Source: a virus. Taken from it: a DNA stretch of 33,060 bases. The notes beneath the pieces were generated by a model. That model did no database searches and was not told the origin of the DNA. It saw nothing but the letters and a program-made list of their open reading frames with translations. Positions 1-17,085 of the stretch are shown here, in pieces. Made by a program: the position numbers and the translations under genes. The stretch covers positions 1-33,060 of IMG/VR virus record IMGVR_UViG_3300025101_000092; one strand, written 5' to 3'. Numbering within the stretch: position 1 is the stretch's first letter; each line of letters starts with the position of its first letter.

Positions 1-615
1 AAAAAGCTTGGTAAAATGCCGACCACGACAACCGAAAGAAAAAGTTGCCCAGACTCTTGCCCTATGAAAAACGGCGATTGCTACGGCGAAAAATATCATA
101 CTTCTATTGTGTGGGGCGAAACTGAAACGGGATTTAATAAGCGATGGAAAAAGAAATTTTCTAATAATTGGGATGATGTTATGGAAAAAATTGCAAACTT
201 TCCCGAGTCCGTGGATATATGGCGACATAATCAAATCGGCGATTTACCTAACGACGGCGACGACAACGAGTCTATTGACGAAAAAAAATTAAATCAGTTA
301 GTGAAAGCAAATAATGGACGCCGTGTAATTTGTTTTACTCACAAACATAAATATAAAAAGAATATAGAGCTTATAAAAAAAGCTAATGAAAACGGATTCA
401 CAATTAATTTAAGTGCTAACAATTTAGAACACGCCGACGAATTAGCAAAGCACGGACTCCCCGTTGCCGTGGTAGTGGACGAACACACAACGGCGACTCC
501 AAATGGGCGACCCGTTGCAATGTGTTTGAGTCAGACCAAAGGACTCACTTGTAAGCAATGCAAATTGTGTTCAGTTAACACTAGAAAAACAATTGTTGGA
601 TTTCTTAAACACTAA
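1..615 (+). CDS. DUF7227-like phage protein, 5' end cut by window
   Basis: The reading frame is open to the window edge. The residues before the first ATG (base 16), K-K-L-G-K, match what I recall of this family upstream of its T-T-T block, so the true start probably lies outside. From the first ATG there are 199 residues. The N-terminal Cys block CPDSCPMKNGDCYGE (about residues 11-25) and the C-terminal block CKQCKLCSVNTRK look like a split metal-binding or disulfide cluster. The block WRHNQIGDLP (about 69-78) is another family hallmark. I recall this as the widespread phage family DUF7227, whose function is unknown; the assignment is from memory. It converges on the nuclease gene across an inverted repeat. 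The DNA is richer in GC (many GGCGA and CGACG strings) than the rest of the window. Confidence 0.8.
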   Translation, partial: KKLGKMPTTTTERKSCPDSCPMKNGDCYGEKYHTSIVWGETETGFNKRWKKKFSNNWDDVMEKIANFPESVDIWRHNQIGDLPNDGDDNESIDEKKLNQLVKANNGRRVICFTHKHKYKKNIELIKKANENGFTINLSANNLEHADELAKHGLPVAVVVDEHTTATPNGRPVAMCLSQTKGLTCKQCKLCSVNTRKTIVGFLKH

Positions 616-660: not shown

Positions 661-708
661 AACGCCCGGATATATCTTTGACTCCTTAATCTAAAATATC
701 CGGGCGTT
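661..708. terminator. Inverted repeat between convergent genes, possible bidirectional terminator
   Basis: AACGCCCGGATAT (661-673) pairs perfectly over 13 bp with ATATCCGGGCGTT (696-708) around a 22-base loop. It lies between the end of the DUF7227-like gene and the end of the nuclease gene, and its right arm encodes the last nuclease residues. No clear T run follows on either strand, so it is not a classic intrinsic terminator. It could instead be a processing or protein-binding site. Confidence 0.4.
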
Positions 709-1183
709 CAGTTAAATTATTATCCCGATCCCCGACCCCGAATATTGGCTTAAAAATCCCGACCCGATCTGATGTATACTTTATCATTGAGTCTATTAGT
801 CCCGAAAAATTGTCCCCGAAATATAAGCAAGGTATCCCCGATCCCGACCCGATGTCCACCGACCCGAGTCCTTTGGTCGCCAACTCCCGACCATATTCCC
901 CCGAAAATAAATATAGGTGCGAGGTTGAGAGGGGGTTAACCAAGTAAAAACTTACACCCCCCGATTTAAAATACCCGAAATTCCAAGCGATTTGTTGAGC
1001 AGATATAGAAACTCTGTTAGTTTTTGTTACTTTTAGTTCAATCCAAAATGGCAAATGATCTGCACAGATATGCACATCGGGAATACCACCACCTAAACGA
1101 TTTTCAATTCTTGTTATGTGCCAACTGCTTGGTAGATTTTTTCTTACTCTGTTCCACAGAAGACCTTCTGGTTTTTGTGTCAT
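686..1183 (-). CDS. PD-(D/E)XK nuclease, VRR-NUC/resolvase-like
   Basis: A 165-residue protein. The first 95 residues show the order expected of a PD-(D/E)XK nuclease: a basic helix, Glu27 (RIEN), GGGIPDV with Asp36, then IELKV with Glu49 and Lys51, and a Gln pair (SAQQIAW, 62-68) like the downstream helix of VRR-NUC and Holliday-junction resolvase domains. It probably cuts branched or double-stranded DNA. The start overlaps the end of the terminase small subunit gene by 80 bases, which suggests coupled translation and a role in packaging or end processing (inference). The C-terminal 70 residues are Gly-rich and odd: their DNA carries 15 TCGGG pentamers (CCCGA on the + strand) in several frames, so the tail may be a repeat-derived extension outside the catalytic core. 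Confidence 0.75.
   Translation of the reverse strand: MTQKPEGLLWNRVRKNLPSSWHITRIENRLGGGIPDVHICADHLPFWIELKVTKTNRVSISAQQIAWNFGYFKSGGVSFYLVNPLSTSHLYLFSGEYGRELATKGLGSVDIGSGSGIPCLYFGDNFSGLIDSMIKYTSDRVGIFKPIFGVGDRDNNLTERPDILD
724..978 (+). repeat. Cluster of 15 CCCGA pentamers
   Basis: CCCGA occurs on the + strand starting at 724, 731, 737, 758, 763, 801, 815, 837, 843, 848, 863, 886, 900, 960 and 974. Several copies are back to back (CCCGACCCGA). They fall in different codon phases of the nuclease gene on the other strand, so amino acid demand alone does not explain them. The cluster sits just downstream of the terminase small subunit gene, where some phages keep their packaging site. Confidence 0.85.
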
Positions 1184-1679
1184 CTATTACCTCTGCATCT
1201 ATAAATGCTTGTGGGTGTTTATTTCTTAATTCATTTAATCGGTTTTCAATTTCTTCTCTGCTCATTCCATCAATTGCGTGATAGTGATTTGTTTCTCTTC
1301 TATCAATAGTCAATCCACCTAACGAACTTCTAATTTTTTCTGCATTAATACTTGCAGTAAATTGACCTTCTTCTTCTGCTCTATCTCCTAACTCTTTAAA
1401 TCTTTTTAATTGTCCAATTAAAGTAACACCATATTTTTTTTCTCTTTCTTCACGAAGTTCATTTATATATTCCGTAATGTGAGGAAACATTTTAGGGTTT
1501 AACAATTTATTTGCTTGTATTCTAGCAATACCATTTGTATCAGAATATCCTGCCTTGCGAACACATTCTGCATTACTATAAACACCCTCTACAAAGTATT
1601 TAGCAAACTCTTTTTGTCTGTTAGTAAGTTTACGACCAAAGTCTTCTTCTATTTTTTCAATCTTATTTTTACTAGTCAT
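1104..1679 (-). CDS. terS: Terminase small subunit (Terminase_2-like)
   Basis: A protein of about 191 residues. Near its N-terminus is the Terminase_2-type DNA-binding region: LTNRQKEFAKYFVEG, then NAECVRKAGYS, then ANKLLNPKMFPHI, an HTH-like arrangement. A central charged helix follows, and the tail is basic (RRSSVEQSKKKSTKQ). Small subunits form rings that recognise viral DNA and start packaging with the large subunit, which is not in this window. I chose the ATG at 1679: a TTG 63 bases upstream has no ribosome site, and the next in-frame ATG lies inside the domain. The only AGGAG is a single base from this ATG, too close for normal use. A TATATA box also lies just upstream, so the message may be leaderless or the start may differ. 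Confidence 0.8.
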   Translation of the reverse strand: MTSKNKIEKIEEDFGRKLTNRQKEFAKYFVEGVYSNAECVRKAGYSDTNGIARIQANKLLNPKMFPHITEYINELREEREKKYGVTLIGQLKRFKELGDRAEEEGQFTASINAEKIRSSLGGLTIDRRETNHYHAIDGMSREEIENRLNELRNKHPQAFIDAEVIDDTKTRRSSVEQSKKKSTKQLAHNKN

Positions 1680-1684
1680 ACTCC

Positions 1685-1695
1685 TATATATACTG
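1685..1695 (-). promoter_or_regulatory. CAGTATATATA box upstream of terS
   Basis: Read leftward, the sequence CAGTATATATA ends six bases before the terS ATG. The same CAGTATATAT string occurs at 1936-1945 and 1989-1998, in front of the rightward early genes. If TATATA acts as a -10 element, transcription would begin at or very near the terS start codon. No good -35 hexamer was seen. Confidence 0.3.
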
Positions 1696-1759
1696 AACGA
1701 ATCTAAAAAAGAAAATAGTTTTTTTAAAATTGGAAACTGCAATCGGTCAGAATATCTGA

Positions 1760-2025: not shown

Positions 2026-2460
2026 ATGAAAGATACACATTTAGATGAAATAAGAAAAGACTTTAACGAGTTCTTTGAAACAATGAACACAAGGTATAAG
2101 TCAAACTTTCAAATGAAGACTATTCGATTTGGTGGTTCAAGAGAAGAAGTTACTGAAGGTTCATTTACTGTTCAGTTCTTGGTCAATGGTCAAAAGTCCA
2201 AGGAAGAAAAACTTTTAGAAATGTACGCAAAGGATTACAACCTAGACCTTGAGAAGGTGTACAACCATCATCAGTTAGGAAAGATTAAACTGCATTCGTA
2301 TAGTTCTACATCAAGGAAGAACAAGTACATTATTGAAAGTGAGAATGGCAAGAAGTACAAAGTCGATTACATAAGTGCCAGAAAATGGTTCGGGAAAAAA
2401 CCAACCGAGGGCAGTCTTACTTTAACAGATATAAATGGGAGAGCGATCAATGGAACTTAA
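2026..2460 (+). CDS. Hypothetical early protein, 144 aa
   Basis: First gene of the rightward early string. It has a good ribosome site (AGGAG, eight bases before the ATG) and the leader with the CAGTATATAT boxes. The protein is charged and apparently soluble, with no signal or membrane segment. It starts with an acidic helical stretch (HLDEIRKDFNEFFETMN) and then has a Lys/Tyr-rich half (SSTSRKNKYIIESENGKKY). I do not recognise the family. The end overlaps the next start by 11 bases. Its first place in the operon fits an early host-takeover or regulatory protein, but that is inference only. Confidence 0.75.
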   Translation: MKDTHLDEIRKDFNEFFETMNTRYKSNFQMKTIRFGGSREEVTEGSFTVQFLVNGQKSKEEKLLEMYAKDYNLDLEKVYNHHQLGKIKLHSYSSTSRKNKYIIESENGKKYKVDYISARKWFGKKPTEGSLTLTDINGRAINGT

Positions 2461-2920
2461 TTTTAATCTGAAAGAAGTAAACGAACTTATTAATTTTCAA
2501 AGGATTAATGGGCATTCGTTAAAGAAACCTTACGCAAAATATTTACCAGAGGGGGAGGACAAAACTTGTCCCCCTTCTCTATTATTAGTGGGCGATCAAG
2601 GTGTTTATTTAATGAACCATTCTGAAAAAACTATGCCTAGAAAAAATGGAGAAGGTAAAAAAGAGGGTTGGTCACAAGTTGTTTTTGCAGAAGAATGCAA
2701 TCCTCATAAATTAGATTTTGATGAATGGAGATACAACAAAGAATATTCTTTTGGTGGCGATGATGGTTGTGAAATTTATCCTATCAAAAATTTTGAAATG
2801 GTAAGTCAAGATTACTACAACAAAAAGGGATTACCAAAGAAAGGGTATGAAGATTTTTTTACAATAGAACTTTCACCAAAGAGTTTTTATTTAAAAGGTA
2901 TTAAGAGGAGAAAAAAATGA
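2450..2920 (+). CDS. DUF3085 family protein
   Basis: A 156-residue protein when started at the ATG at 2450, which follows GGGAG by nine bases; an in-frame ATG 15 bases upstream lacks a site. Three blocks match what I recall of DUF3085: LLLVGDQGVYLMN (about 44-56), FAEECNP (79-85) and YSFGGDDGCE (99-108). DUF3085 proteins occur in phages, plasmids and proteobacterial genomic islands and have no settled function. The protein is compact and soluble, with no catalytic signature that I can name. Neighbours are small unknown proteins plus a YubB-like protein, the same company these families keep on conjugative plasmids, so a role in establishment or anti-defence is possible (inference). Confidence 0.8.
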   Translation: MELNFNLKEVNELINFQRINGHSLKKPYAKYLPEGEDKTCPPSLLLVGDQGVYLMNHSEKTMPRKNGEGKKEGWSQVVFAEECNPHKLDFDEWRYNKEYSFGGDDGCEIYPIKNFEMVSQDYYNKKGLPKKGYEDFFTIELSPKSFYLKGIKRRKK

Positions 2921-3465
2921 TTAGTGAATCTATGAAAAAGAAATATTTTGATAGATGGACTGATAGTAGTTACGGCGATGATGTCGTAACTACTAGTATC
3001 GGTTACAACTATATAGACAATCAAGAAGATTATGAAATGCAGTTATGGTATTTAGAAGACCCTACGAATAAAACTAGAGAGCAAGAAAAGTTTGGTTATT
3101 CTACTTACAAATTAAGAATAAGAAAAGATGTATGTGAAGTCACAGAACAAGAGATGAAGGAATACGATTTAGTAAGTGACGACAAGCATTTCATATTGTG
3201 GACAAATAGTTTTGTAAATTTAGTAAAAGCATTAAGAAAGTTTTATCCTTGTTCTGTGGACGAATTGAAGATGGTTGAAACGGATAGTTTCATAAAACAA
3301 ATGTCCAATATTTTGCAAAACTTTTGTACACAGAATAATTTACCACAGTACGATCCAGACGATTTATTGTATGGAGAATATGAAGGAAAAAGAATACCTC
3401 TTACAAAAAAACAAAAATCATTTTTAATATCTTTTACTTCCTTATGGAACAAGGGGGAAGTATGA
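2917..3465 (+). CDS. Hypothetical protein, 182 aa
   Basis: Starts at an ATGA overlap with the DUF3085 gene, behind a strong AGGAG six bases upstream, so it is probably translated at a similar level. The sequence is rich in Asp, Tyr and Lys, soluble, with no membrane segment. The C-terminal part (EYEGKRIPLTKKQKSFLIS) looks like a folded helical tail. I do not recognise a family. The end overlaps the next gene by four bases. Confidence 0.7.
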   Translation: MISESMKKKYFDRWTDSSYGDDVVTTSIGYNYIDNQEDYEMQLWYLEDPTNKTREQEKFGYSTYKLRIRKDVCEVTEQEMKEYDLVSDDKHFILWTNSFVNLVKALRKFYPCSVDELKMVETDSFIKQMSNILQNFCTQNNLPQYDPDDLLYGEYEGKRIPLTKKQKSFLISFTSLWNKGEV

Positions 3466-3671
3466 ATTTAAAACAACTATATGAAAGAGCAAAAAAAAAT
3501 AACTCTCATTATGCGAAAGAAACCTTTGAAGATTTTATTCACGATTATAAAAATGTAAGAGAAGACTTTTTTGTTAGTGAGGAAGAATATAGAAGACTTG
3601 CCCCAAAGTTAGAGGGCGAGTTTTATTCTTATTATAAAAAAATATATGGAGTGGGGTATTTAAATGACTGA
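3462..3671 (+). CDS. Hypothetical small protein, 69 aa
   Basis: The ATG at 3462 follows AGGGGGAAGT directly and overlaps the previous stop (ATGA), so I prefer it to the ATG 18 bases upstream, which has no ribosome site. The protein is helical and charged (LYERAKKNNSHYAKETFED, then VSEEEYRRLAPKLEGEF), with no recognised domain. It overlaps the next start by eight bases, in keeping with a single tightly coupled transcript. Confidence 0.65.
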   Translation: MNLKQLYERAKKNNSHYAKETFEDFIHDYKNVREDFFVSEEEYRRLAPKLEGEFYSYYKKIYGVGYLND

Positions 3672-5873: not shown

Positions 5874-6045
5874 AGACATAGGCAAGTACATTGAGTTGTA
5901 TGAGTTAGATAAAGTACACCGATGTATTTCTGAATTACACAAGGATTATGATAAACTTTCCAAAGAAGGAAAACATCAATTAGATTTTTTAACCAATTAT
6001 TTTGTTATTTTGGAGCAGAGCGATTATGACAACACAAGAAAATAA
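5827..6045 (+). CDS. Hypothetical protein, 72 aa
   Basis: The ATG at 5827 is placed well behind AAAGGAG; a GTG one codon earlier is possible. The start lies inside the zinc-ribbon gene. The protein looks all-helical (KYIELYELDKVHRCISELH, KLSKEGKHQLDFLTNY). No family recognised. It overlaps the next small gene by 20 bases. Confidence 0.6.
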   Translation: MAFVGFQKKPFTEKFKDIGKYIELYELDKVHRCISELHKDYDKLSKEGKHQLDFLTNYFVILEQSDYDNTRK

Positions 6046-6178
6046 AAAACCCGAACCCGAAGACAGTAAACTATCTTGGTCAGAGGCAATAGAGATTTTA
6101 GAACGGCACATTATTCATAAAGACTATATTTCACAGTCGAGCTTGATAAAAGCATTAGATAGAATAAAGGCAGGATAA
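6026..6178 (+). CDS. Hypothetical small protein, 50 aa
   Basis: An open frame begun by ATG at 6026 and joined to the next gene by TAATG. It has an acidic, Pro/Glu-rich start (KKPEPEDSKLSWSEA) and a C-terminal helix pair (AIEILERHIIHKDY, SLIKALDRIKAG). GGAG lies 12 bases upstream, which is far. Without this gene there would be an unusual gap in an otherwise continuous operon, and the composition matches its neighbours. Function unknown. Confidence 0.55.
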   Translation: MTTQENKKPEPEDSKLSWSEAIEILERHIIHKDYISQSSLIKALDRIKAG

Positions 6179-6447
6179 TGAAGGATATTATTTATAAGGT
6201 GTTATGCCGCGCCCGAATTTTTTTTAGAAGTTTTAAAAAAAGAGATCCCGAGATAATGTTCCGATGGTCATCGGTTCAAGTTTGTCATAGCCTGGAATTT
6301 ATTATGAAATTAAATTCTGTGGCAAAGTCCCCAATAGAAAAGTTAAAAACTAATGACCCGATTGACGAAAGGGAGAGAAAAGATTTATTATTAATTTGCG
6401 AACAATTAGAGGAAGCCGTTGAGCAAATCAAAACTAAAGGTTCTTGA
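6178..6447 (+). CDS. Hypothetical protein, 89 aa
   Basis: Starts by TAATG overlap and ends 29 bases inside the methyltransferase gene. The N-terminus is basic and hydrophobic (YKVLCRARIFFRSFKKRDPE); the rest is a helical hairpin (ERKDLLLICEQLEEAVEQI). No membrane segment is long enough to be sure of. No family recognised. The end encodes the ribosome site used by the methyltransferase. Confidence 0.6.
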   Translation: MKDIIYKVLCRARIFFRSFKKRDPEIMFRWSSVQVCHSLEFIMKLNSVAKSPIEKLKTNDPIDERERKDLLLICEQLEEAVEQIKTKGS

Positions 6448-7690
6448 TTTATTTTCAGGGATCGGTGGATTTAGTCTAGCTTTAGAATCTACAGGTCATT
6501 TTCAAACCATTGGCTTTGTGGAAAATGATGAGTACTGTCAGGCAGTATTGCAACATCATTTTCCCGAAGTCCCGATATTAGGAGATATAAAAAATGTCAC
6601 AAAAGAAACAGTCCCGACCCGTCCAGATGTCATTTGTGGGGGTTTCCCCTGCCAACCCTTTTCAGTCGCAGGAGATCAAAGGGCGAAAGATGATCCTAGA
6701 CACCTCTGGCCAGAGATGTTGCGAATTATCAAGGAACAAAAACCCACTTGGGTTGTTGGAGAAAACGTTAGTGGACTCGTCAAATTGGGCTTGGACGAAA
6801 TACTCGATGAAATGGAGGATCAAGGCTACTCCACGAGGACGTTTAATATACCAGCTTTCTCGGTTGGCGCCCCCCACCAACGACAACGATTATGGATCAT
6901 TGGACACTTGGGCGACCCCGAACACAATGGATCACCTACCCCCGAGAGACAAAGAGGATTGCTCAAGCAACCAGAAGAACCGAAAAAACAGATCTCGATC
7001 TGGGAATCTGAGGGAACAAGTGGTGCATCAAGAGATGTGGCCAACCCCGACAACGAAAGGGTACGGTCACGCATCGGAGGGGATGACTTTGATTATGAGG
7101 AGGAAAGTGGAGAAGGGGGAGTTGACGGAGAAGGAAGCGCAGGAGATGATGAATGGTACGACACTTCGCCCACCCAGGATGAAGGAGTGGATGTTTCCGA
7201 CACCGACAACACAAGAGACCGAACACAAGAACATCAAGTTAACAAAGACGGGAAGAAGAATATCCAAGGACGGCAAGAACACACACAGTCTAAGTCTAGC
7301 AGACACGGTGCAGATGTGGCCAACCCCGAGAGCTTCAAATCCAGGGAGCAGACCGAACGGCAAGGGAGGGAAAATACTGCAAGAAGAAGTGATGATAGCA
7401 GAGGGACTAAGACAGAGAGGACAGAAACTGTTACCGACCCCAACGGCAAGGGACTACAAGGACAGAGGAAAAAATACAAACTACCAAAAAGCAAAAGAAA
7501 AAGGGAGATTGGCGGGAGCAGTTGGTGGGACATTGAACCCAACGTGGGTCGAGTGGCTTATGGGGTACCCAATAGAGTATTTAAACTCCGTGCCTTGGGA
7601 AACTCCATCATCCCGCAAATTGCACAAAAAATAGGTTATGCTATAATAGAAGCCGAAAAAAATGGATGTAAAAAAAGTAGTAAGTTTTGA
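6419..7690 (+). CDS. DNA (cytosine-5) methyltransferase
   Basis: A 423-residue C5 methyltransferase. Motif I DLFSGIGG (10-17) binds SAM; motif IV GGFPCQPFS carries the catalytic Cys78; motif VI is ENV (115-117); motif VIII is QRQRLW (154-159); motif X LGNSIIPQ (about 393-400) is at the end. Residues 165-375 form a long, charged target-recognition region with repeated A-N-P-D, S-D-T-D and T-D-P-N blocks. The start is TTG: AGAGGAAG stands seven bases upstream and motif I begins only ten residues in, leaving no room for an ATG. It may protect phage DNA from host restriction or mark it; the site is unknown. From base 6594 the same DNA is open in the +1 frame for 346 codons. Confidence 0.93.
   Translation: MSKSKLKVLDLFSGIGGFSLALESTGHFQTIGFVENDEYCQAVLQHHFPEVPILGDIKNVTKETVPTRPDVICGGFPCQPFSVAGDQRAKDDPRHLWPEMLRIIKEQKPTWVVGENVSGLVKLGLDEILDEMEDQGYSTRTFNIPAFSVGAPHQRQRLWIIGHLGDPEHNGSPTPERQRGLLKQPEEPKKQISIWESEGTSGASRDVANPDNERVRSRIGGDDFDYEEESGEGGVDGEGSAGDDEWYDTSPTQDEGVDVSDTDNTRDRTQEHQVNKDGKKNIQGRQEHTQSKSSRHGADVANPESFKSREQTERQGRENTARRSDDSRGTKTERTETVTDPNGKGLQGQRKKYKLPKSKRKREIGGSSWWDIEPNVGRVAYGVPNRVFKLRALGNSIIPQIAQKIGYAIIEAEKNGCKKSSKF
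6580..6584 (+). promoter_or_regulatory. Internal ribosome binding site AGGAG
   Basis: AGGAG followed nine bases later by an ATG in the +1 frame, inside the methyltransferase gene where the main frame reads L-G-D-I. It is the signal that could start the overprinted protein. Confidence 0.5.
6594..7634 (+). CDS. Overprinted +1-frame ORF with W-P-T-P-T repeats
   Basis: A 346-codon frame fully inside the methyltransferase gene, shifted by +1, with AGGAG nine bases before its ATG. The protein is basic. It carries five spaced W/F-P-T-P-like blocks: WATPN (about 106), WPTPT (149), FPTPT (201), WPTPR (242) and LPTPTARDYKD (280-290). Near the end is LNPTWVEWLMGYP (314-326). An upstream block, YSMKWRIKATPRGRLIYQL (70-88), and these motifs resemble phage proteins I remember being annotated as hypothetical. 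Those may themselves be frames overlapping methyltransferases. Either this is true dual coding or a frame kept open by the repeated target-recognition codons. Function unknown. Confidence 0.45.
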   Translation: MSQKKQSRPVQMSFVGVSPANPFQSQEIKGRKMILDTSGQRCCELSRNKNPLGLLEKTLVDSSNWAWTKYSMKWRIKATPRGRLIYQLSRLAPPTNDNDYGSLDTWATPNTMDHLPPRDKEDCSSNQKNRKNRSRSGNLREQVVHQEMWPTPTTKGYGHASEGMTLIMRRKVEKGELTEKEAQEMMNGTTLRPPRMKEWMFPTPTTQETEHKNIKLTKTGRRISKDGKNTHSLSLADTVQMWPTPRASNPGSRPNGKGGKILQEEVMIAEGLRQRGQKLLPTPTARDYKDRGKNTNYQKAKEKGRLAGAVGGTLNPTWVEWLMGYPIEYLNSVPWETPSSRKLHKK

Positions 7691-16423: not shown

Positions 16424-16526
16424 TTTACAAGGTACAATCATAAGCAAGACTTATTTTAAAGCACTCAGTGGTCATTTAAACGGGTTTTTATTTAAAACAC
16501 AAGCTCACAGGGGGTTTTGTGGATAA
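16416..16526 (+). CDS. Possible 36-aa protein
   Basis: An ATG overlapping the DUF3310 stop opens a 36-codon frame that ends eight bases inside the adenine methyltransferase gene. Otherwise 95 bases would be untranslated in a fully packed operon. It has no ribosome site of its own (coupling possible), and the protein (DLQGTIISKTYFKALSGHL) matches nothing I know. Confidence 0.3.
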   Translation: MNDLQGTIISKTYFKALSGHLNGFLFKTQAHRGFCG

Positions 16527-17085
16527 GATTAGTTTGCCCAGAGGTAAATACAATATTATTTACGCAGATCCACCTTGGCAATACAAAACATACTCTGGAG
16601 ATTTGGTTACACCGTATCCGATTATGAAAGATGAAGACATTTATAGTATGCCAGTACAAGAGATAGCAAATGATAATTGTATTTTATTAATGTGGGTTAC
16701 GTTTCCTAAATTAATAGAAGGCATTGAAACAATGAAGCGTTGGGGTTTTACATATAAGACGTGTGCCTTTGCTTGGATAAAGACAAATAAAAAATTTAAC
16801 ACCAAACAGTTTACGTTTTTACCAGAAGATAACTTTTCATCTTTTTGGGGTATGGGGTATTGGACGAGAGCTAATGCAGAACTTTGTTTGTTAGGTACAG
16901 TTGGTAAACCTAAACGTGTATCAAAGTCTGTGCATCAGGTTATCTATGAGCCAATAGAAAGACACTCAAAGAAGCCAGACTGTGTAAGAGATAAAATAGT
17001 TGAGTTATGTGGGGATTTGCCTAGAATAGAGTTATTCGCAAGACAAAAGACCCCAGGGTGGGTGACTTGGGGAAATGAGGTATAA
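16519..17085 (+). CDS. MT-A70 family DNA adenine N6-methyltransferase
   Basis: A 188-residue protein with the catalytic DPPW motif at 17-20, the MT-A70 core ILLMWVTFPKLIEGIETM (about 55-72) and the late block HSKKPDCVRDKIVELCG, followed by RIELFARQKTPGW, where SAM contacts lie in this family. It methylates adenine N6 in DNA; the target is unknown. The start is GTG behind AGGGGG; no ATG fits upstream of DPPW. With the cytosine methyltransferase at 6419 it gives the phage two kinds of DNA marking, probably against host restriction. Its stop overlaps the polymerase ATG (TAATG). Confidence 0.9.
   Translation: MDKISLPRGKYNIIYADPPWQYKTYSGDLVTPYPIMKDEDIYSMPVQEIANDNCILLMWVTFPKLIEGIETMKRWGFTYKTCAFAWIKTNKKFNTKQFTFLPEDNFSSFWGMGYWTRANAELCLLGTVGKPKRVSKSVHQVIYEPIERHSKKPDCVRDKIVELCGDLPRIELFARQKTPGWVTWGNEV

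Follow-up and report, generated by a model that had tools for sequence, protein, structure and literature searches.

The pac site of phage P1 comprises seven hexamers, TGATC[A/G], within one 161-bp site (PMC10028697), and that of SPP1 consists of three sets of direct repeats around the start of terS, the gene encoding the terminase small subunit (PMC6316719, PMC4737164). In SF6 one DNA-binding domain of the small subunit (TerS) occupies 4-5 bp, and no sequence-specific word was found (PMC4737164). How a small terminase recognizes the genome of its own phage is not well settled. To our knowledge, known pac sites are a few hundred bp long at most, and several arrays spread over 1.5-5 kb, as described here, are unlike any of them.

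The DNA analysed, a 33,060-base IMG/VR virus record referred to here as the window, carries an array of the pentamer TCGGG next to terS, and its relatives carry arrays of this or of another word. As in the PacA/PacB-recognized pac of P1, short repeated words lie inside coding sequence at the small-terminase locus, where in P1 they are recognized for packaging. Unlike the P1 word, which contains the Dam target GATC, none of the words TCGGG, TCGGA and GCTTG contains GATC, which speaks against a P1-type methylation control, and whereas P1 has one site, here two or more arrays lie outside terS, on one strand and with a lineage-specific word. With SPP1 and SF6 the locus shares a homologous TerS DNA-binding domain, direct repeats at the terminase locus and a unit of 4-5 bp per domain, yet the isolated SF6 domain has little sequence preference, whereas this locus repeats one exact 5-bp word many times downstream of terS. 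By analogy, the array appears to work most like P1 pac or SPP1 pac.

The first-pass annotation had reported fifteen exact CCCGA pentamers at 724-978, lying just downstream of terS and in different codon phases. The count on the plus strand is exact, CCCGA being TCGGG on the minus strand, and in 5,000 dinucleotide-preserving shuffles of the 255-bp array stretch CCCGA occurred 2.9 times on average and never more than 8 times. No other 5-mer across the 33-kb window reaches 15 copies in 255 bp, and the best 5-mer cluster in 20 shuffled windows held at most 7 in 255 bp. The TCGGG spelling is that of the coding strand of terS and of the nuclease ORF, and the array does follow terS in the sense of transcription. 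The location needs one refinement, as the array is not intergenic but lies inside codons ~69-152 of a separate 165-aa nuclease ORF overlapping the terS end, and its copies indeed occupy all three codon phases of that ORF (Table 1). Arrays 2 and 3 of the relatives are missing from the record because the contig ends ~100 bp short of array 2. Between the stops of the nuclease and DUF7227 genes, a stem-loop at 662-708 is probably a terminator. Its stem differs among relatives, in which it reads CCCAGATTAAATT..AATTTAATCTGGG with the loop AGATTAGGAGTC as in the window, and the loop AGATTA(A)GGAGTC is kept; a different stem with the same loop suggests a covarying structure. RNAalifold did not recover a covarying stem at 662-708, where the relatives are misaligned.

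Table 1. Coordinates of the terminase-locus features in the window.
Feature	Position	Strand	Remarks
Left contig edge	1..15		~100 bp before array 2 site in close relatives (L008: +1210 from terS end)
DUF7227 gene	16..615	+	PF23872; between array 1 and the relatives' array 2 site
Stem-loop	662..708		End of nuclease ORF, edge of array region; from sequence and relatives
165-aa predicted PD-(D/E)XK nuclease, VRR-NUC/Holliday-junction-resolvase type	686..1183	-	phrog_2165; hosts array 1, overlaps terS end
Array 1	724..978	-	15 direct TCGGG copies, all on one strand, spacing 5-60 bp
Terminase small subunit (TerS)	1104..1742	-	PF03592 (Terminase_2), phrog_51
TerS helix-turn-helix region, presumed reader domain	1503..1628	-	Residues ~39-80, AlphaFold model pLDDT ~90

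The profile of the TerS protein matches SF6 TerS (4zc3, 3zqp, 2cmp) and Pam5 TerS, and the top PDB fold match of its modelled helix-turn-helix (HTH) is the SF6 TerS DNA-binding domain, 4zc3. Translation of terS may in fact start at the ATG at 1679, as relatives begin nearby. The 165-aa ORF that hosts the array has no named family in Pfam; the profile of its family matches PDB 4qbo 'Nuclease' (E 0.004), and its AlphaFold model (mean pLDDT 83) resembles in fold archaeal Hjc, RecU resolvases and the VRR_NUC domain 4qbn. Together with the E, PD, ExK and Q of PD-(D/E)XK, invariant throughout the family, the model predicts an active-looking resolvase/VRR-NUC-type nuclease. The model is folded over residues ~1-140 and its tail is predicted to be disordered, and the majority of the pentamer copies fall in codons of the folded part, beyond the disordered tail alone. 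Elsewhere in the window, a C5-methyltransferase gene at 6419-7690 (+) contains in another frame a 346-aa ORF (6594-7634, +); each of the two frames matches 'DNA methyltransferase' families of PHROG, and the AT skew reaches an extreme value of 0.52 at 7001-7500, as if both frames were constrained together. An MT-A70-type gene at 16519-17085 (+) encodes a second DNA methyltransferase of this phage.

Relatives were sampled by TerS search alone, blind to the array, yielding 28 loci. All close TerS relatives with contigs extending beyond terS have the array. The 26 loci that were measured carry 11-15 TCGGG within 450 bp past terS, at most one copy on the opposite strand and none upstream, and in L010, the contig of which ends 290 bp past terS, 7 copies are still visible. 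An alignment of relatives had been proposed at the outset as a check on whether the array is kept while the protein tail varies, and this is what we find. Loci of the clade whose TerS is 71% identical (L021-L027) have 11-13 copies, located at shifted positions, and the 88% clade (L016-L020) shows both gains and losses of copies. In L004 an 8-bp insertion shifts the frame and truncates the nuclease, and five copies persist past the new stop, while L028, with a truncating deletion in the nuclease, keeps 12 copies, some of them past the stop; in both the nuclease is cut off after residue 134. At third codon positions of the close clade the diversity is 0.050 inside the copies compared to 0.121 outside (2.4-fold less), and only 1 of 84 circular shifts gave a value as low, indicating that the low silent-site variation reflects constraint on the DNA and not only on the protein. 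The array is thus conserved as a cis-acting DNA element, independent of the encoded protein, as expected of a pac site.

Relatives reaching past DUF7227 have another TCGGG array, on the strand of array 1, ~1.2-1.7 kb downstream of terS, and the close clades have a third at ~2.0-2.9 kb. Two or more extra arrays precede terL. The order in L026 is terS, nuclease with array 1, DUF7227, array 2 and terL (6204-7664, phrog_38). Scanning 2.9 million viral contigs (IMG/VR) with the fixed DNA pattern TCGGGTCGGGNTCGGGTCGGG, using no protein information, returned 79 stretches, mostly of the terS-terL locus; most of them show terS, the nuclease, array 1, further arrays and terL, one strand throughout, and a few are fragments with arrays alone or with arrays and terL. 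Whole-record scans of 18 larger records (ten with TCGGG and eight with CAAGC, a second word described below) found the arrays on one strand and mostly in one zone of a few kb; among the few exceptions is G008, in which one array lies 4 kb apart from the main zone. The points at which metagenome and GenBank records start are no guide to virion ends. The same locus carries arrays in well over 100 contigs, with 8-21 pentamers in each first array and two or more arrays over 1.5-5 kb. A pac site is expected in or beside terS, or in the interval up to terL, which is where the arrays lie. In DSL-LC04 no array was detected despite the presence of TerS and the nuclease.

A different word occupies the equivalent place in the SAR11 phage HTVC027P, the TerS of which is 33-40% identical to that of the window. 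There, CAAGC/GCTTG repeats with a 7-bp period are found at the 3' end of the nuclease gene, and more arrays lie beyond a DUF7227-like gene; the arrays of this phage, which grows on Pelagibacter HTCC1062, fall at 16.5-17.75 kb of MN698241.1. A scan of viral contigs for four successive CAAGCNN units gave at least 120 stretches, and nearly all of the matches listed show terS (on the opposite strand), nuclease, array 1, DUF7227 (on the opposite strand), array 2 and terL. The copies are spaced 5-6 bp apart in TCGGG arrays (48 non-redundant arrays) versus 7 bp in GCTTG arrays (66), sets that partly reflect the scan patterns. Helical phasing of the gaps is weak (period ~5.5 bp, R 0.25) and could be caused by decayed copies. 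HTVC023P-type phages (L231 and its relatives) carry CAAGC/CGAGC repeats at the equivalent place, with a period of ~4 in L231; in HTVC023P itself there are just six CTAGGA, located upstream of terS.

The strand of the arrays was compared with that of the neighbouring genes using arrays of at least 6 copies; near-identical contigs were included, so that the comparisons cannot be treated as independent. Arrays lie on the terL strand in 77/77 TCGGG comparisons and, among the matches listed, in 49/49 GCTTG comparisons (126/126 in total), and on the nuclease strand in 179/179 and, among the matches listed, 146/146, respectively. TerS lies on the array strand in 185/185 TCGGG comparisons and on the opposite strand in 140 of the 143 GCTTG comparisons among the matches listed. 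Array direction is tied to terL, which is the direction expected for packaging, and such directionality with respect to the terL side is as expected of pac. The strand of DUF7227 relative to the arrays is variable, the gene being present in relatives on either strand or absent while the array strand is constant. We considered DUF7227 as the owner of the arrays and rejected it, as in many TCGGG loci it is absent or on either strand.

Location and strand also bear on the thought that the arrays form an iteron-type replication origin or enhancer, the copies of which would be bound by an initiator of the phage or by a host factor to start replication, proximity to terS being historical. Direct-repeat iterons bound by an initiator are a classic design of phage origins, oriL and oriR of SPP1 are direct repeats bound by gp38 (PMC6316719), and several arrays could form a multi-part origin; with the iterons of phage origins and plasmid centromeres they share many direct copies of a short site, for which cooperativity at the level of the array is expected. 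Nevertheless, we consider an origin rather unlikely. An origin would not be expected to keep a constant strand with respect to terL, and the arrays differ from such iterons in having their orientation locked to terL and in the lack of an initiator or partition gene recognized in the vicinity. No initiator-like gene was recognized in the L026 array zone, the neighbours being terS, nuclease, DUF7227 and terL. Primase, helicase and PolA genes of the window lie 8-18 kb away, and the arrays stay with terS and terL while everything else rearranges.

A second array-blind sample consisted of 80 loci with L104-type TerS, in which the array lies 20-70 bp past terS, including loci without the nuclease. 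This observation bears on ownership of the array by the nuclease, a resolvase-like protein that would bind or cut the repeats of its own gene for a selfish or a regulatory end. In both word groups array 1 does overlap the nuclease ORF toward its 3' end, always on the sense strand, and yet we find such ownership very improbable. The L104-type loci keep the array after terS and no nuclease was detected in those examined, arrays 2 and 3 lie outside the nuclease gene, and nuclease genes of the array-hosting family situated away from terS, as in an Achromobacter phage and in RcRudolph, carry no array. Two further features were seen at L104-type loci. Most members have 7-8 CTTAC in 250 bp, 0.8-1.3 kb upstream of terS (for example L281, L282, L298), a possible further short-site array. 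A protein of ~400 aa encoded in the array zone (+2362..3582 from the terS end in L298, +1390..2574 in L282) shows 33-37% identity between TCGGG and TCGGA phages; it is also diverse inside the TCGGG class and looks like a swapped module.

The arrays of L104-type loci are spelled TCGGG in some loci, TCGGA with TCGGT in others, and are mixed in yet others. Array 1 and the distal arrays share their word (Spearman 0.83, n=51; the loci are related by descent, and the P-value is not to be read literally), and the TerS tree requires at least 3 changes between the pure TCGGG and TCGGA classes. That arrays separated by kilobases have switched repeatedly and in parallel implies a single trans-acting reader, and we conclude that a protein in trans reads the array as a directional DNA element. 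The concerted change also bears on an RNA element, in which UCGGG or GCUUG repeats of a transcript would be targets of an RNA-binding protein or have a role in translation or termination. TRAP-like ring proteins bind RNA arrays, and one-strand copies 5-7 nt apart are similar to these. We regard an RNA element as extremely improbable, since arrays kilobases apart in different genes change word together, and since the varying strand and presence of DUF7227 place them sense or antisense of different transcripts. The chance that the arrays are functionless products of low-complexity or repeat drift is virtually negligible. Slippage can expand tandem short words, and L209 has three neighbouring microsatellites at the locus, but irregular spacing, silent-site conservation, a single strand, a shared locus and the concerted word change all oppose drift, which conservation and the strand rule refute in practice. 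The L209 microsatellites follow one another at 6040-6480, 2 kb downstream of terS, as (AAGGAACG)13, (GTCGCTT)n and (CGGGCAACAGTAGGG)11; among its relatives GTCGCT arrays are found in L236, L241, L246 and L252, and TCGTCG arrays in L242 and L244.

Which protein reads the word was pursued across the same 80 TerS sequences. The closest pair of TerS across the two classes is 94% identical and differs within the HTH solely at residue 44 (A/S), almost all 80 sequences have the same canonical recognition helix, and no single TerS column accounts for the TCGGG/TCGGA switch. Gene-by-gene comparison of TCGGG and TCGGA phages likewise identified no neighbouring gene that follows the word cleanly. The word sorts alike on the trees of TerS, TerL, nuclease and DUF7227 (1-2 changes each), and for this reason the trees do not single out TerS as the reader. 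It is conceivable that the copies are sites for another phage or host DNA-binding protein, such as a partition or anchoring factor, a late-gene regulator or a nucleoid protein. The residues of TerS do not follow the word switch, and TCGGG is common to TerS only ~25% identical (window compared to L073/L104), so that TerS may be less conserved than the reader. Tandem sites of seven bp also recall the plasmid centromere arrays bound by ribbon-helix-helix proteins. Weighing against such a protein, no nearby gene follows the word cleanly, parA/parB- or parM/parR-like genes were not recognized among the window proteins scanned (which included part of the small ORFs), and there would be no reason for a regulator or sponge site to stay on one strand with respect to terL in hundreds of contigs. 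We therefore judge another reader to be unlikely, while giving it some weight.

TerS is in our opinion the best candidate for the reader, as it adjoins the arrays in both groups and its DNA-binding domain is homologous to that of SF6 TerS. The lack of arrays at nuclease genes situated away from terS agrees with this. TerS proteins oligomerise. The 4-5 bp occupied by one SF6 domain (PMC4737164) fits the pentamer length and the copy spacing of 5-7 bp. On the other side, the isolated SF6 DNA-binding domain is nearly non-specific, and the HTHs of the SF6 ring are about one helical turn apart and not 5-7 bp (PMC4737164). Counting against a pac reading, too, are the spread of the arrays over 1.5-5 kb and the situation in HTVC023P, with its six CTAGGA upstream of terS. 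The first-pass annotation had suggested that the array is the packaging recognition site or, alternatively, a site for another iterated DNA-binding protein or a methyltransferase. The packaging suggestion is favored by the location between terS and terL, the strand constant relative to terL and the concerted word change, and the methyltransferase alternative gained no positive evidence. Because SF6 DNA-binding domains are non-specific, the ring geometry does not match, TerS that are ~25% identical share TCGGG and DSL-LC04 lacks a detectable array, we put the probability that the array is part of a pac region recognized by TerS at roughly 0.6.

Based on this reading we propose that the arrays from terS to terL constitute one multi-part, pac-like packaging-initiation region. 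Oligomerised TerS, presenting many HTH domains, would bind the 5-bp words of one strand side by side, and the complex of TerS with the array would recruit TerL, so that packaging would start at the arrays. Packaging would be directed toward terL and the structural genes by the fixed strand of the copies, and the adjoining resolvase-like nuclease could plausibly trim branched DNA ahead of packaging.

More tentatively, and with somewhat less than an even chance in our view, marine phages of this wider group may possess a packaging-initiation or genome-polarity system in which two or more strand-locked pentamer arrays are spaced by kilobases and the word of the reader can be quickly re-spelled genome-wide, so that related phages sharing the same water avoid packaging or using each other's DNA. 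The literature searched holds no multi-array packaging system of this kind, and in open-access literature we found no report of the pentamer arrays; they are absent from the text of papers on HTVC023P, HTVC027P and marine fosmid phages. A search of genome contigs for the host found no TerS relative. As two very different words, TCGGG and GCTTG, are available together with a 94%-identical TerS pair from TCGGG and TCGGA phages, the specificity of recognition is directly testable. The arrays provide a sequence-only marker of the packaging locus and its direction in abundant, mostly uncultured marine phages, a marker that also covers relatives of cultivable SAR11 phages.
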